Shown here one piece after another: positions 25,200 through 32,273 of a DNA stretch of 64,000 nucleotides. Numbering within the stretch: the stretch's first letter is position 1; every line of letters starts with the position of its first letter. The notes under the pieces were generated by a model. It saw only the letters and a program-made list of their open reading frames with translations. It was not told the DNA's origin and did no database searches. The stretch lies in the NCBI GenBank assembly GCA_001314845.1, contig LJZQ01000001.1, forward strand, positions 239,590 to 303,589. The letters are read 5' to 3'. Source of the DNA: Marinobacter excellens HL-55. GTDB taxonomy: Bacteria; Pseudomonadota; Gammaproteobacteria; Pseudomonadales; Oleiphilaceae. A program made the translations under genes and the position numbers.

Positions 25200-25850
25200 A
25201 TGACACCACAGGCAGTTCTTGAGATCATCAGCCAGGCCAGAAGAAAGGAAGCACGATCCGGCGCATTTCTCCGACAGATGAAGGAGAAGGCCGCACAGCT
25301 GCCTTCGGTTATTTCGGTTGATGGCTATCAGCCTGCCACATCACTGTTCCAGTTTGCGGTGGAATACATCGAAATGGCGCCGCGGTTAATCGAATGCGTA
25401 GAGGCCTGCTCCAGAGAGGCGGGCATCGCGGACCTGTTTCAGCCTTTTGTTGATGCGGCTACCCGGTACTTCACCCAGCCTTCTGTGCTGCTGGTGCGCT
25501 ACGATGGCCTGGATGGATTGCTTATACGAGCCTATCTGTGCCACCGACTGATGGAAGAAATGCACGACAACAACCGGTCCATCCGCGCCGGCGAACTGAT
25601 CGATCTGGAGGCTACCCGGGCCAACCTGCTGGCTCACGAGCTCATAGGTGAGCCCTTTGCCAACGAGCTGGATAATGCCATCACTGTGACGGTCCTGCAG
25701 ATCGCCGGGACGCCGGATTATTACAATCTCGACCTGGACCCGTTTATCAACCAGGTCAACAACCAGGCCTGGGACTGGATGCGTCATTACTGGGAAAACC
25801 TGTTGGAGAGGAACCACATCCATTTTTCGCTGGGCTCAGGCCTAACCTGA
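25200..25850 (+). CDS. conserved hypothetical protein
   Basis: 217 aa from ATG at 25200; acidic helical soluble protein; not recognised. Confidence 0.6.
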   Translation: MTPQAVLEIISQARRKEARSGAFLRQMKEKAAQLPSVISVDGYQPATSLFQFAVEYIEMAPRLIECVEACSREAGIADLFQPFVDAATRYFTQPSVLLVRYDGLDGLLIRAYLCHRLMEEMHDNNRSIRAGELIDLEATRANLLAHELIGEPFANELDNAITVTVLQIAGTPDYYNLDLDPFINQVNNQAWDWMRHYWENLLERNHIHFSLGSGLT

Positions 25851-25863
25851 CAGGTTTTACTCT

Positions 25864-26339
25864 ATGAAACGAGGTTTTTGCGCAATCCTGACGTTATTGG
25901 CGCTGCCGTCATGGCTTCAGGCCCAGGAAATTGATCTGACACTTACCTCTGCGAGCGGCCCGGTCACCGATGCGGTAGTGTTTCTGGACGGAGGGCCCTC
26001 AGGCCAGCCTGTTACAGCCGAGATCGCCCAACAGAACCGACAGTTTCATCCCCGTGTGCTGGTTATTCCGGTCAATTCCACCGTTGACTTTCCGAACCGC
26101 GATAAAACGCAACATCATGTTTACTCGTTTTCGCCAGCCAAGCCCTTTGAACTGGAGCTCTACACCAACCGACCAGAAGCACCGGTGGTTTTTGATCAAG
26201 CCGGCATTGTGGAACTCGGCTGACGGTGCCCGCAGCGACCCAGAACGGTGATGCCATCAAGAATCGCCATCGAACTCACTCCGGAGCCTGACACGGACAG
26301 CCCTCTGGACAGACTCCAGAAACGATTTCAGGATATCTG
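25864..26339 (+). pseudogene. cupredoxin-like 'methylamine utilization' periplasmic protein, apparently disrupted
   Basis: Signal peptide; ...HHVYSFSPAKPFELELYTNRPEAPVVFDQAGIVELG then TGA (26221..26223); same frame reopens as ...SRIAIELTPEPDTDSPLDRLQKRFQDI and stops in a TGATG overlap with the next gene. Confidence 0.6.
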
Positions 26340-28691
26340 ATGGCTTTGATGCATCCTCAGCTTGGTTTTCGGGGACGTCTGGTGCTTGCCATGGTGGTCC
26401 TGGTAGCCCTGGTCAGCCTGACCATCAGCGCTCTGTTTACCGCCTATCTGTTTGATGAGGAGGAAAACCGCGCTGCTGCGCAGCTCGCTGTGGGCCAGCG
26501 CCTGACCGACGAAATCATGAGTCGCCGCACCGCCCTGGAGCTGTCTCGCCTGTCAGTACTGGTTCAGAATTTTGGTTTTCGTTCGGCCATCGCCAGCGGT
26601 GACGACGCTACCATGCTCAGCGCACTGGACAATCACAGTCAACGGGTCGGCGCCGCCTTCGCGGTGCTCCTGAATCAGGCCCGCCAGCCCCTGGCATCCA
26701 CGCTTAACGGCGACATCCCAGAGATACATTCCGACAGTTTTCAGTCTGCCCTCACACAAGGCTAAGGTCGCCAGCTGATGACCATCGATCAGGCCGGCTA
26801 CGAACTGCTCCTGATCCCGATCCAGGCACCCGGTCTGAGGGCCTGGATGGCCGCCGGATTTGCGCTGGACAATGATCTGGCCGAGTCAATTGCCAGCCTG
26901 TCAGACACCCAGGTGTACTTTCGCAGCGAAGCCACGGACGACCAGGCCTTCCAAGTGATCGCCGCCAGTTCAGGGGTGGAGCTGGCACTAGCGCAAGAAC
27001 AGACTAATCCGGACAACAACATACTGCCGATGGAAGACCCCCGCTTTTTTTCACGAGTGGTCCCGCTTGATGCCAGCAGCGATCTGCAAGCGGTCCTTCT
27101 GATTAACCGGGATGCCAGTCTGCAACGCTTCTACCAGCGAGTCACGGAAGTGCTGTTGTTGGTGATGGTGATATTGTTTATCGCCATTGTGGTCGCGCTC
27201 TACATCGCCCGGTCACTTGGTAAACCGGTCCTGCAGCTGGCGGACTATGCCCGGGCGGTCGGTAAGGAAACCCCCCCACCGCCGCCAGAGCTTACCGGTG
27301 GTGGTGAAATCACTGAGCTGGGCCAGGCGTTCACCGACATGCTCGGCCGTCTGCGTGAACGGGAAGAACAAATACGTTACACCGCCTCTCACGACGATGT
27401 GACAGCGCTCGGAAATCGTAATGCGTTGATTCACTTCGCCAAAGAGCTATTCAGTGCACAAACACCCTGCAGCATTATAGGCGTTCGTCTGGACGAGCTC
27501 TCTGAGATCAATGACACCCTTGGGCTTGAACTGGGCGACAAGGTGCTGATCGGGATATCAGGCCGCCTGCGCGAAGCCCTTCCGGATGCTCTTTTGTTGG
27601 CGCGCACTGGCGGGGATGAGTTTCTTGCGGTTCTGCCAGCCAACGAGCCTTCTCAGCTTGATACCAGAGCCTCAGACCTCGCAGAGCAATTACGCAAGCC
27701 TTTGCAGGTGGACAATACCCCTTTCTCGCTGAAAATAACTCTGGTAACCATGGCATTGCCTGCCGATGCCAGCGATGCCAACGAGCTCCGCCGCCGGCTG
27801 AATCTGACCTTTGAAAAAGCCCTGGCCGGGCAGGCCGCTGTTATCCGTTATCAGGCCGGGGAAGATGAAAACCATCTGCGCGAACTACAACTGATTGCCG
27901 ATCTACACAAAGCGATCACCCGGCAAGGGCTGATCATGCATTACCAACCAAAATTGGACTTGCTCACCGGCCAACTCGTTCAAGTTGAGGCATTGGTACG
28001 CTGGATTCACCCCGAACTGGGCTTTATCTCACCGGAAGAATTTATTTTTTTGGCTGAACGCTCAGGCCAGATTCACGATCTGACCGCTCACATTCTGGGT
28101 CTCGTCGCCGCCGACGTTCGAGCCTGGCAAGAGGACGGCTATACCTTCGGTGTAGCGATCAACCTGTCAGCCATGGACCTGGTCTGGAGCGGCCTGACGG
28201 ATCACGTTGCACGTTGCTTCAACGAGCTTCCCGGCGGCATGGCTTGCATAACTCTTGAGGTGACCGAAAGCGCCGTCATGGAGAAGCCGGAAAAAGCGCT
28301 TGCCACGCTTAACCAGCTGCGGGCATTGGGCGCCGAACTCTCGGTCGACGATTTCGGCACTGGCTACTCGTCGCTGTCTCAACTCAGAACCCTGCCGGTT
28401 CAGGAACTCAAGATAGACAAATCCTTTGTCCTGAAACTGGCCTCTGAGCCTCAGGACCAGCTGATCGTCAGATCTACCATTGAGATGGCTCACGGTCTTG
28501 GCTTACGCGTGGTAGCAGAGGGAATCGAAAGTATGGATGCCTGGGCCCTGCTACAAACCTGGCAATGCGACCTCGGCCAGGGGTTCGGACTGAGCCGGCC
28601 GGTGCCCGCCGGCGACCTGCCACGAGTGGCTCAGGAACTGGCCAACCGACGTTTTGAACTGGCACACCCCGATGCGGAGACCTCCACATGA
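26340..28691 (+). pseudogene. membrane sensor with HAMP-like, GGDEF and EAL domains, interrupted by in-frame TAA at 26763..26765
   Basis: ORFs 26340..26765 and 26778..28691 are in the same frame; first has N-terminal TM and start of periplasmic domain, second has its remainder, second TM, TGGDEFLAVLP and VEALVRW. Confidence 0.75.
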
Positions 28692-29563
28692 TCAGAATTC
28701 TGACCTTTATGCTGTTGCTACCGGCCACTCTGCCACACGCTCAGGCCAGTGATCCGGGCAGCCGTATCTGGGCGACTGGCGGTGTCACCACCATCGAGGG
28801 CAGCGCCGGCGGCGGTCTTGTCCCCTGGGCGTTGTTGAGTGGTTACGCCAGCGATGAGGAGTGGGGCGGTACCCTGAGCCTGAGCCAGGCGAAAGTTGAC
28901 GACTACAGCCTGACGGTTCAGGCCGCCAGCCTGAACTGGAACAACCGGGTCGAGCTGTCGGTCGCCCGGCAAACTCTGGACCTGGACAGCCTGGTGTTTG
29001 TGCTCAAGGATGGCTTCGGGATCGAGCAGGATGAGCTGCGCCAGGATGTCTTCGGTCTCAAGGTCCGGCTGTTCGGGGATGTGCTGTACACGCCCTGGGG
29101 GCAATGGTCTGCAGGCGTGCAATACAAACGCCAACGGGACTTTACAGTGCCGGATACGATCGGGGCCCGGGATGACAGCGGCACAGACCTTTATCTGAGT
29201 GGCAGCAAAGTCTTTTTTGCCAGCCTTTTTGACCGCAACCTGCTGGTGAGCGGCACCGTTCGGGCAACCCGCGCTAACCAGGGCGGGTTGCTGGGATTTG
29301 GCGGTGACAAAAACAACGGCTACGAATTCATGGCCGAAGCCGCAGCAGGCATCCTCCTGAACCGCCAATGGCTGGTGGGCGCAGAGTACCGGCAGAAGCC
29401 GGACAACCTGAATTTTGCTGAAGAAAATGACTGGTGGGATCTGTTTGTCGCCTGGGTTCCGGATCGCCGGCTGTCGCTGACCGCCGCCTGGGTCAACCTG
29501 GGCGACATCGCCACACTAACCGATCAACAAGGCTTGTACCTATCCCTTGAAGGGAGTTTCTGA
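28688..29563 (+). CDS. DUF3034 family exported protein
   Basis: Signal peptide; WATGGVTTIEGSAGGGLVPWALLSGYAS and repeated beta-strand pattern; 4-nt overlap with upstream gene. Confidence 0.82.
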   Translation: MIRILTFMLLLPATLPHAQASDPGSRIWATGGVTTIEGSAGGGLVPWALLSGYASDEEWGGTLSLSQAKVDDYSLTVQAASLNWNNRVELSVARQTLDLDSLVFVLKDGFGIEQDELRQDVFGLKVRLFGDVLYTPWGQWSAGVQYKRQRDFTVPDTIGARDDSGTDLYLSGSKVFFASLFDRNLLVSGTVRATRANQGGLLGFGGDKNNGYEFMAEAAAGILLNRQWLVGAEYRQKPDNLNFAEENDWWDLFVAWVPDRRLSLTAAWVNLGDIATLTDQQGLYLSLEGSF

Positions 29564-30015
29564 TGACCGGAATGATTCGACCAAACACTCTGGCCTTGTG
29601 CCTAATTCTCTTCATGACCGGATGGATGACAGGCTGTCAGACCCCCGCCAGCCATCAAAACGACGGTTTCTACGATCAATTAGGACAACGCAGTGGCATT
29701 GCAGACATCGTTGAGGATCTGCTGTTCCTGATTGTCGACGATGCACGCATCAACCAATCTTTCAAAGGCGTTGATGTGCAGCAGTTCCACCGGCATCTGA
29801 CCGATCAGCTGTGTGAACTCAGTGGCGGCCCCTGTGAGTACACCGGCCGCAGCATGCGTGAACTCCATGCCGACATGGCCATTACCGACACCCAGTTCAA
29901 CGCCCTGACGGAAAACCTGATTCTGGCAATGGAGAAAAATAAGGTGCCTGTCGGTGCCCAGAACCGCCTGCTGGAAAAGCTGGTTCCCCTGTACCCGGAT
30001 ATCCGTAATCTTTGA
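29563..30015 (+). CDS. group 1 truncated hemoglobin with lipoprotein-type signal peptide
   Basis: LFMTGWMTGCQ lipobox-like; YDQLGQRSGIADIVEDLL; proximal-His segment SMRELHADMAITDTQFNALTENL. Confidence 0.85.
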   Translation: MTGMIRPNTLALCLILFMTGWMTGCQTPASHQNDGFYDQLGQRSGIADIVEDLLFLIVDDARINQSFKGVDVQQFHRHLTDQLCELSGGPCEYTGRSMRELHADMAITDTQFNALTENLILAMEKNKVPVGAQNRLLEKLVPLYPDIRNL

Positions 30016-30083: not shown

Positions 30084-30470
30084 TTGCTTGAGAACACCGA
30101 CCTGGGAAAACTCATTGTCCGACTCACCCTGGGCGGACTGCTGCTGTTCCATGGTATTTCGAAACTGCTCAACGGCGTCGGCTTTATCGAAGGCCAGCTG
30201 GCCAGCCACGGACTGCCGACGATTCTGGCCTATGGCGTTTATATCGGCGAAGTCATCGCCCCGCTAATGGTCCTTCTGGGCTACCAGACCCGCATCGGCG
30301 CGCTGATCATCATCTTCAACATGATCGTGGCCATTGCTCTGGTCCATGGCCACCAGCTACTGACGTTAAGCAATAATGGTGGCTGGGCGCTGGAACTGCA
30401 GGGATTTTTCCTGTTTATTGCGCTCGCCGTGCTGTTTCTGGGCCCCGGCAAGTACAAACTGAAAAACTGA
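30084..30470 (+). CDS. DoxX family protein
   Basis: 128 aa; LTLGGLLLFHGISKLLNGVGFI; four TMs. Confidence 0.88.
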   Translation: MLENTDLGKLIVRLTLGGLLLFHGISKLLNGVGFIEGQLASHGLPTILAYGVYIGEVIAPLMVLLGYQTRIGALIIIFNMIVAIALVHGHQLLTLSNNGGWALELQGFFLFIALAVLFLGPGKYKLKN

Positions 30471-30473
30471 AGC

Positions 30474-32273
30474 TCAGGCGTCCGTCGCGGGGGCGACAGC
30501 TTTCGGCTGCCACTCCGCGACCCGGTTCCGGCCGTTGGCCTTGGCGCAATACATCGCTTCGTCGGCCCGCCGGATCAGTTCATGGCTGTCGCCGCCCCGG
30601 GTGGGGAGCATGGTGGCAACACCGACACTGATGGTCAGGTTAATCGGTGCATCGTGTTCACCACTGACCACCGGGGTTTGCGCCACCGCCTGGCGGATAC
30701 GCTCAGCCACCATAAAGGCACCTTCACTCTCGGTCGCGGGCAGCAAGATGGCAAATTCTTCGCCTCCGTACCGTGCTACCAGATCGCCGGACCGCTGCAC
30801 CTCTGCCTGCAACAGGCTGGCCAGAGCCACCAGGCAATCGTCACCGGCAAGATGCCCCAGGTCATCATTGACCCGCTTGAAGTGGTCAATATCCATCAGC
30901 AACAGGCTAAGCTCCTGCTCATGGCGCACAGCCCGGCCCCACTCGATATCGAGCTTGTCATCAAACCGGCGCCGGTTGGCGACATGGGTCAAGCCGTCGG
31001 TCAGGCTGATGGCCCTTAGCTGTTCGTTGGCACTTTCCAGCTCTTCGGTGCGTTCCCGCACCCGGGCCTCCAGCGTCAGGTTGGCCTGCTGCTGGATCTC
31101 CAATGCACGTTCCTGGGCTTGTTGGCGCCGGCTGCGCTCCATGTTGATCCGGTAGGCCAGCGCGAAAGACAACAGAATGACCTCCAACGCGACCCCCGCC
31201 TGGGGTATCAACTCCGTGACAGGGCTGGTTGGCATCCAGCCCAGCTTACTGAGAGCCAGCACCAGATGGCCCACCAGCAGCGGCGTCCAGGCCACCACAT
31301 AGAACCCCGCCAACACCTGCCCCTGACGCCAGACGTAAAGCCCGATCAGCCAGGCGGCGGGCGTGGCAAACGCAGCAATACCGCTGACCAGGGCTATTCC
31401 GCTCTGGTAAGGCCCGAGCAGACCGTAGAAAAAGGTGAACACACAAGCGCCGATTAAACCCTGCGAAATCCGATAGCTGAGCAGGCTATAATGGCGAACG
31501 GCCAGAAACTTGAGGGTGAACATCACCGCGCAGAACATGGCAAAACTGATCACCGGAACGGTAAAGTAGCGATTAAGCTCAGGGACATCGGGCCAGAACC
31601 ATTGGAACAGCAGACCATTAAAGTTGAGCTGAATCATACCGGTAGAAACCACCGTCAACACGTACCACAGATACGTGGTGTGCCGCACAATCACAAACAG
31701 AAACAGGTTATACAGCGAAAGCGCCACCACGATGCCCAGGAACATCGCCTGCCAGCCATAGGAGAACTGCTCGTTGGCCAGGAAATCCGCCGATGGTAAG
31801 ACGGCAATGGGAACCTGCACCGAGCCCTGGGTCATGATCCTTATCCAGGCCGTCACCGGCTCGGTATTGGAAGGCACCAGAAAAACAAAATTGCGGTGTA
31901 TGATCGGACGCGTATCAAACGGGCGGGCATCCCCCGTATGGTGGGACTCCACAATGCTGCCGTCCAGCTCCCAATAGACCGACACCTGATCCAACAACGG
32001 ATAACCCACTTCCAGCACCCGGTTAACCGGTTCCGGTGGCACTGTGACTTTCAGCCAGAATGTGCCGTTACTGAAGCCCCGGTTCAGTACAATAGTGGCG
32101 GGACTGTGTTGCCATTGGCTATCGGGCAGCAAACGCACCTGATCGGGCCCCAGGTTATCCTCGGTAAGCTCAATCCAGTCGAACCCCATGGGCTCGGCAC
32201 TCGCGGCAGAACTGGCGAGCCACAGCAGCAGCCATATCAGCGTGCCCAGGGTGCGGGCAAGTGGGGCTTTCAT
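30474..32273 (-). CDS. 7TMR-DISM diguanylate cyclase
   Basis: N-terminal DISMED2-like domain, 7 TM, coiled coil, ARYGGEEFAILLP (GGEEF). Confidence 0.9.
   Translation of the reverse strand: MKAPLARTLGTLIWLLLWLASSAASAEPMGFDWIELTEDNLGPDQVRLLPDSQWQHSPATIVLNRGFSNGTFWLKVTVPPEPVNRVLEVGYPLLDQVSVYWELDGSIVESHHTGDARPFDTRPIIHRNFVFLVPSNTEPVTAWIRIMTQGSVQVPIAVLPSADFLANEQFSYGWQAMFLGIVVALSLYNLFLFVIVRHTTYLWYVLTVVSTGMIQLNFNGLLFQWFWPDVPELNRYFTVPVISFAMFCAVMFTLKFLAVRHYSLLSYRISQGLIGACVFTFFYGLLGPYQSGIALVSGIAAFATPAAWLIGLYVWRQGQVLAGFYVVAWTPLLVGHLVLALSKLGWMPTSPVTELIPQAGVALEVILLSFALAYRINMERSRRQQAQERALEIQQQANLTLEARVRERTEELESANEQLRAISLTDGLTHVANRRRFDDKLDIEWGRAVRHEQELSLLLMDIDHFKRVNDDLGHLAGDDCLVALASLLQAEVQRSGDLVARYGGEEFAILLPATESEGAFMVAERIRQAVAQTPVVSGEHDAPINLTISVGVATMLPTRGGDSHELIRRADEAMYCAKANGRNRVAEWQPKAVAPATDA

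Follow-up and report, generated by a model that had tools for sequence, protein, structure and literature searches.

The 64,000-nucleotide stretch of the Marinobacter excellens HL-55 genome analysed here (the window; contig LJZQ01000001.1, positions 239,590 to 303,589) carries four gene positions on one strand within 25864-30015: a cupredoxin, a membrane receptor with GGDEF and EAL domains of cyclic di-GMP (c-di-GMP) turnover, a DUF3034 protein and a truncated hemoglobin (Table 1). An earlier note made from the sequence alone had described this arrangement, and the 4 nucleotides shared by the receptor stop and the DUF3034 ATG (28688-28691) and the 1-nucleotide overlap at 29563 are as it gave them. 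It had also named the last two genes correctly: the DUF3034 protein matches PF11231 with 355.3 bits against a cut-off of 25 (model positions 1-254 of 255), and the globin matches Bac_globin (E = 6.9e-11) and has a lipobox-like MTGC. The first two genes required correction. The TGATG at 26338-26342, noted as an overlapping junction, is present, but the cupredoxin open reading frame (ORF) of 119 amino acids now stops at 26223, so the junction is a relic of an ancestral overlap between the cupredoxin stop TGA (26338-26340) and the receptor ATG. The receptor does have HAMP, GGDEF and EAL domains, but is interrupted by an in-frame TAA at 26763-26765. No NCBIfam equivalog scored above its cut-off for the receptors shown here, the cupredoxin, DUF3034 and globin had no NCBIfam match, and a promoter and terminator scan gave a signal no higher than in shuffled sequence.

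Table 1. Genes and gene relics of the cassette and its borders, in window positions.
Feature	Position	Strand	Evidence or context
Left-flank gene, 216 aa, no putative function given	25200..25850	+	Left border, outside the cassette; in 8/8 cassette-free genomes tested, directly beside DoxX in 7
Cupredoxin gene remnant, 119-aa ORF (signal peptide and first half of the domain)	25864..26223	+	Alignment to relative, profile search
Cupredoxin 3' relic after net 165-nt deletion	26224..26340	+	From 26251 aligns at 94% to the end of the relative's gene; in-frame read-through
Receptor gene dCache_3-HAMP-GGDEF-EAL, 783 codons including one stop	26340..28691	+	ORFs 26340-26765 and 26778-28691; intact 783 aa in L051; dCache_3 from relatives
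DUF3034 protein, 291 aa, signal peptide, predicted 12-stranded outer-membrane barrel, conserved N-terminal GGGxxPWA segment	28688..29563	+	PF11231 (E = 2.6e-106), AlphaFold2, Foldseek
Group 1 truncated hemoglobin lipoprotein, 150 aa; proximal His, B10 Leu, two conserved Cys	29563..30015	+	
DoxX-family gene	30084..30470	+	Right border, outside the cassette; adjoins the left-border gene in cassette-free genomes

Distribution of the cassette

Within the genus, DUF3034 was present in 34 of 61 genomes, and the cupredoxin model found exactly the same 34. The module-type globin was found in 33 of these, missing only in G026, which keeps remnants of the cassette. In 7 of the 8 cassette-free genomes examined the left-flank gene, present in all 8, lies just 56-132 nucleotides from the DoxX gene. 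Because the flanks abut where the cassette is absent, the cassette consists of exactly these four genes and excludes their neighbours, and it is a genuine, discrete and inheritable unit with an all-or-none distribution in the genus.

The earlier note had predicted that the four families would recur together across genera if DUF3034 was used as an anchor, and this was strongly borne out. Among 80 named genomes fetched by DUF3034, which are the best matches to the query and thus no even sample, the globin adjoins DUF3034 in every one and all four families are found in 73, most commonly in the order cupredoxin, receptor, DUF3034, globin. The set includes Halomonas, Vreelandella, Marinobacter, Shewanella, Pseudomonas, Xanthomonas, Pseudoxanthomonas, Rheinheimera, Alteromonas, Colwellia, Methylophaga, Hahella and one Sphingomonadaceae genome. 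The hosts of the cassette include many bacteria from the sea, from soil and from plants. In an even sample of the class (369 genomes), DUF3034 was found in 18, its long form accompanied by the globin and usually also by the cupredoxin and receptor. A shorter DUF3034 subfamily (L045, L046, L047, L048), which lacks the N-terminal RLLATGG segment, stands alone, with no cupredoxin, receptor or globin beside it.

At 102 of 123 cupredoxin-receptor loci the EAL output, DUF3034 and globin occur together. Nearly all of these loci (121/123) lie on a single strand, and 68% of their junctions overlap or fall within 4 nucleotides; the set is arranged as two divergent pairs in Alphaproteobacteria. The grouping of the four genes is far beyond chance. 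On a 281-kb plasmid of Caballeronia (L240), the order is DUF3034, globin, cupredoxin and Cache receptor, the last of which is truncated.

A core pair with exchangeable outputs

We searched the 369 genomes with a model of the cupredoxin and, separately, with a model of the receptor periplasmic domain (A6). A cupredoxin match lay within 4 kb of 29 of the 38 receptor-domain matches, where about 0.03 would be expected, and within 1.5 kb of 26, although A6 was built from cupredoxin-linked receptors so that part of this pairing recovers its own members. The chance of such an adjacency is about 0.0008 per match. Conversely, the receptor accompanies 18 of the 20 best cupredoxin matches.

Beside the cupredoxin, the receptor was found with GGDEF-EAL, class III cyclase (L201, L202, L207, L208), histidine kinase (L203) and Ser/Thr kinase (L037, L211, L214, L216) outputs, and more distant cupredoxins accompany a PAS-GGDEF-EAL output (L242-L246). 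In the cupredoxin tree the kinase branch forms one group, and the cyclase and EAL outputs are intermixed with weak support. The invariant core is the cupredoxin with its Cache receptor and the output domain is exchangeable, while DUF3034 and the globin are mostly confined to the EAL branch. In two of the cyclase loci (L207:6970-8274 and L208:8255-9556), the neighbour of the cupredoxin and the Cache-cyclase receptor is a HAMP-containing membrane protein that bears a CxxCH heme motif on its periplasmic side. By its motif, this would be a heme protein that replaces the globin but comes from a different family. In branches without DUF3034 we also observed, by sequence only, a barrel-like family of about 410-430 amino acids with the motif INSWIGEELR; the members that were tested match no Pfam family. 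It is unrelated to DUF3034 and adjoins the cupredoxin in L201, L206, L209 and L210 and the receptor in L212. Because such substitute barrel-like and CxxCH proteins appear when the families change, the copper protein, Cache receptor, outer-membrane barrel and heme protein recur as roles.

The four components

In relatives (L051 and others), the receptor has dCache_3 and HAMP domains above their cut-offs followed by GGDEF and EAL. All eight phosphodiesterase residues that we checked in the EAL domain (E, N, E, DD, K, E, Q) are kept in 108 of 109 sequences, including that of the window. The canonical GG(D/E)EF motif is found in 29 of the 109, again including the window, and is degenerate in the others. 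With the EAL residues kept and GGDEF mostly degenerate, the conserved output would be c-di-GMP hydrolysis rather than synthesis, and we predict the receptor to be a phosphodiesterase. This upholds the c-di-GMP output suggested earlier as the best reading and narrows the suggested turnover to hydrolysis. Just past the DoxX gene, on the opposite strand, lies a 599-amino-acid membrane protein ending in GGDEF (30474-32273), and a similar protein is found beside the cassette in several relatives of the genus (L051, L052, L055, L057, L060, L062). It is possible that this protein acts as an opposing cyclase to the cassette receptor.

The cupredoxins of relatives are type-1 (blue) copper proteins, and all 60 of those compared keep the His, Cys, His and Met ligands unchanged. 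Structurally, the model (pLDDT 91) resembles pseudoazurin, plastocyanin and amicyanin, and a second domain, weakly similar to CarboxypepD_reg, comes after the cupredoxin domain. A loss of the copper site in the most distant cupredoxin partners was considered and rejected, as His-Cys-His is kept and only the axial Met varies. The cupredoxin of the Caballeronia plasmid carries the database name 'methylamine utilization protein'. Amicyanin is among the fold matches, but the likeness is in name only: the cassette cupredoxin pairs with Cache receptors, and the neighbourhoods examined, in which no genes for methylamine dehydrogenase could be recognised, leave the name unsupported.

The DUF3034 protein has a signal peptide and is modelled by AlphaFold2 as a 12-stranded barrel (pLDDT 84), with Foldseek matches to KdgM (TM(target) 0.82), FapF and Omp33; a search of solved structures by sequence gave no meaningful match. 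On the strength of this model the protein would be placed in the outer membrane. Its most conserved stretch, GGGxxPWA, lies ahead of the first strand, is modelled at low confidence and is possibly the plug of the barrel.

The globin belongs to group 1 of the truncated hemoglobins, with the proximal His in 123 of 123 sequences. HbN proteins are its closest solved structures by sequence (best match E = 3.5e-23), and the GGP-x-Y-x-G core is kept along with the proximal His. Unlike HbN, however, the cassette globin is secreted, has a lipobox-like site in 97 of 122 cases, carries an invariant pair of Cys absent from HbN (122 of 123) and has an aliphatic residue in place of Tyr B10. At this position the window has Leu, and Leu, Val, Ile or Met is found in 119 of 123 sequences and Tyr in only 1. 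Because the Tyr B10 of the nitric oxide (NO)-detoxifying HbN is lacking, NO detoxification by the globin is not to be assumed; the predicted apolar distal pocket speaks against NO dioxygenation of the HbN type and would be compatible with ligand sensing or electron transfer. The globin lipoprotein would sit in the outer membrane and face the periplasm.

Decay of the cassette in HL-55

Close relatives have intact copies of the cassette. Compared with the nearest of these in the genus (genome G035, locus L051, about 95% DNA identity around the site), the window cupredoxin has lost two pieces of its 3' half, a net 165 nucleotides, and has a TGA in frame. It aligns at 97% to the relative's 213-amino-acid protein as far as 26222, and the profile match spans only positions 3-125 of the 218 in the model; the cupredoxins of relatives have about 211-230 amino acids. 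The deleted stretch includes the Cys-x2-His-x2-Met copper ligands, and the window copy thus no longer has the Cys, second His and Met of a type-1 site. The TAA of the receptor is a sense codon in L051, falls inside the Cache domain and splits the gene into parts of 141 and 637 amino acids. DUF3034 and the globin are intact and 97% identical to those of L051. We rejected a sequencing error as the cause of the cupredoxin lesion since the net deletion is 165 nucleotides; for the single receptor TAA such an error is possible but less likely. Because the signalling half, that is the cupredoxin and receptor, is broken, the sequence suggests that the cassette is probably non-functional in HL-55.

Lesions were found in 5 of the 34 cassette loci of the genus (the window, G004, G026, G054 and G036). 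Those of G054 and G036 are split receptors, and since both genomes have an estimated contamination of 6% these may be assembly errors. In G004 (L053) and G026 (L054), the decay proceeded by lesions unlike those of the window, with DUF3034 broken in both and the globin damaged or lost.

A proposed mechanism and its alternatives

Given its strong recurrence and the envelope nature of all its parts, the cassette is best read as a unit that senses at the envelope and has c-di-GMP as its output. This retains the earlier proposal of an envelope redox, copper or gas sensing unit feeding c-di-GMP. We favour, with modest confidence, an envelope-signalling cassette in which the secreted blue copper protein would be a periplasmic co-sensor of the inner-membrane dCache_3 receptor. 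The Cache domain would respond to the state of the cupredoxin, whether copper-loaded or empty, oxidised or reduced, and HAMP would relay this state to the EAL domain, so that it sets the rate of c-di-GMP breakdown. The DUF3034 barrel as a conduit and the periplasm-facing globin lipoprotein as a heme-based gas or redox partner would act upstream and supply or condition the signal. Both a direct interaction between the cupredoxin and the Cache domain and the nature of the signal are inferred.

Several observations weigh against this proposal. Nine of the 38 receptors of the A6 type have no cupredoxin nearby, some of them at contig ends, and a few loci have DUF3034 and the globin without cupredoxin or receptor (L108, L111, L118, L137). 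No fusion of cupredoxin and receptor was seen in the fetched loci. A comparison of distance matrices (mirror-tree) gave no excess for cupredoxin and Cache (partial r 0.14), with 0.29 for cupredoxin and globin and 0.33 for DUF3034 and globin; this therefore shows joint inheritance only and does not discriminate a cupredoxin-Cache coupling. The blue copper protein could also simply be an electron carrier. In that case, the cupredoxin, globin and barrel would form a periplasmic device for electron transfer or for the handling of NO, O2, peroxide or copper, with a phosphodiesterase that merely reports on it or is co-regulated. The nearest folds of the cupredoxin are all electron carriers, the globin and barrel are the tightest companions of the cassette (80/80 loci) and the correlations of the globin are among the highest partial values. 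However, none of the constant neighbours was seen to be an oxidoreductase, the receptor stays with the cupredoxin in cyclase and kinase loci that have neither globin nor barrel, and the globin is without Tyr B10. We regard such a device as rather unlikely, although it keeps real weight.

Less probable still is that copper itself is sensed, with the apo and holo forms of the cupredoxin signalling periplasmic copper and the barrel serving as a copper-permeable pore. The copper ligands are invariant in the sampled family and an outer-membrane barrel of some family is often adjacent, but no copper exporters or chaperones were identified that constantly accompany the cassette, type-1 sites usually serve in redox reactions and hold their copper very tightly, and the axial Met varies in the most distant partners. 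That unrelated envelope genes without joint function came together by chance we consider highly improbable: two of the four genes are pseudogenes in HL-55 while two persist, but the all-or-none distribution, the exact borders, the ordered recurrence in many genera and two classes and the rarity of chance adjacency contradict it.

Relation to known systems

The proposed co-sensor arrangement resembles NspS-MbaA of Vibrio cholerae, with homologues in Sinorhizobium (PMC5646818, PMC8967002, PMC9993111), in which a periplasmic protein controls c-di-GMP turnover by acting on a GGDEF-EAL receptor of the inner membrane whose sensor domain is periplasmic. NspS, however, is a polyamine-binding periplasmic binding protein, whereas the cassette partner is a cupredoxin that also occurs with cyclase and kinase outputs, and the cassette adds an outer-membrane barrel and a globin. 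YfiBNR of Pseudomonas aeruginosa (PMC2837407, PMC3375315) likewise controls c-di-GMP across the whole envelope, through one protein in the periplasm, one in the outer membrane and an enzyme in the inner membrane, but YfiN makes c-di-GMP, YfiR is no cupredoxin and YfiB is an OmpA-like lipoprotein; the cassette has a predicted phosphodiesterase of EAL type with dCache_3, and its partners match cupredoxin and the 12-stranded DUF3034 barrel. In HmsC-HmsD (reviewed in PMC8846402) a periplasmic protein tied to the periplasmic redox state regulates a membrane c-di-GMP enzyme, although HmsC uses disulfides rather than copper and HmsD is a diguanylate cyclase. The text of that review of c-di-GMP sensing does not contain 'copper', 'cupredoxin' or 'hemoglobin', and the open-access literature gave no description of the four-gene unit or of a copper-protein-coupled c-di-GMP, kinase or cyclase receptor. 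Mentions of DUF3034 there are limited to two papers, neither being on this subject by title and abstract, and no function for it was found.

Implications

The cassette is real and widespread, apparently undescribed, and potentially points to a class of copper-protein-coupled receptors. We tentatively propose that blue-copper-protein-coupled receptors could be a general, undescribed class of transmembrane signalling in bacteria. Here dCache_3/HAMP receptors would have the secreted type-1 copper protein as their dedicated ligand, and their outputs would be interchangeable (c-di-GMP phosphodiesterase, class III cyclase, histidine kinase or Ser/Thr kinase). In the most frequent branch, the barrel and heme lipoprotein would feed the receptor, and c-di-GMP would be set by redox or gas conditions at the cell surface. 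Input signals have been assigned to only a minority of GGDEF-EAL proteins, and the fixed pairing with a redox-active copper protein across four outputs offers an input that is specific and can be tested, for a large family of receptors present in Marinobacter, Halomonas, Shewanella, Pseudomonas, Xanthomonas, Alteromonas, Sphingomonadaceae and Burkholderiaceae. The cassette also corrects the misleading name 'methylamine utilization protein' and offers a role for DUF3034 and for a widespread subfamily of secreted globins.

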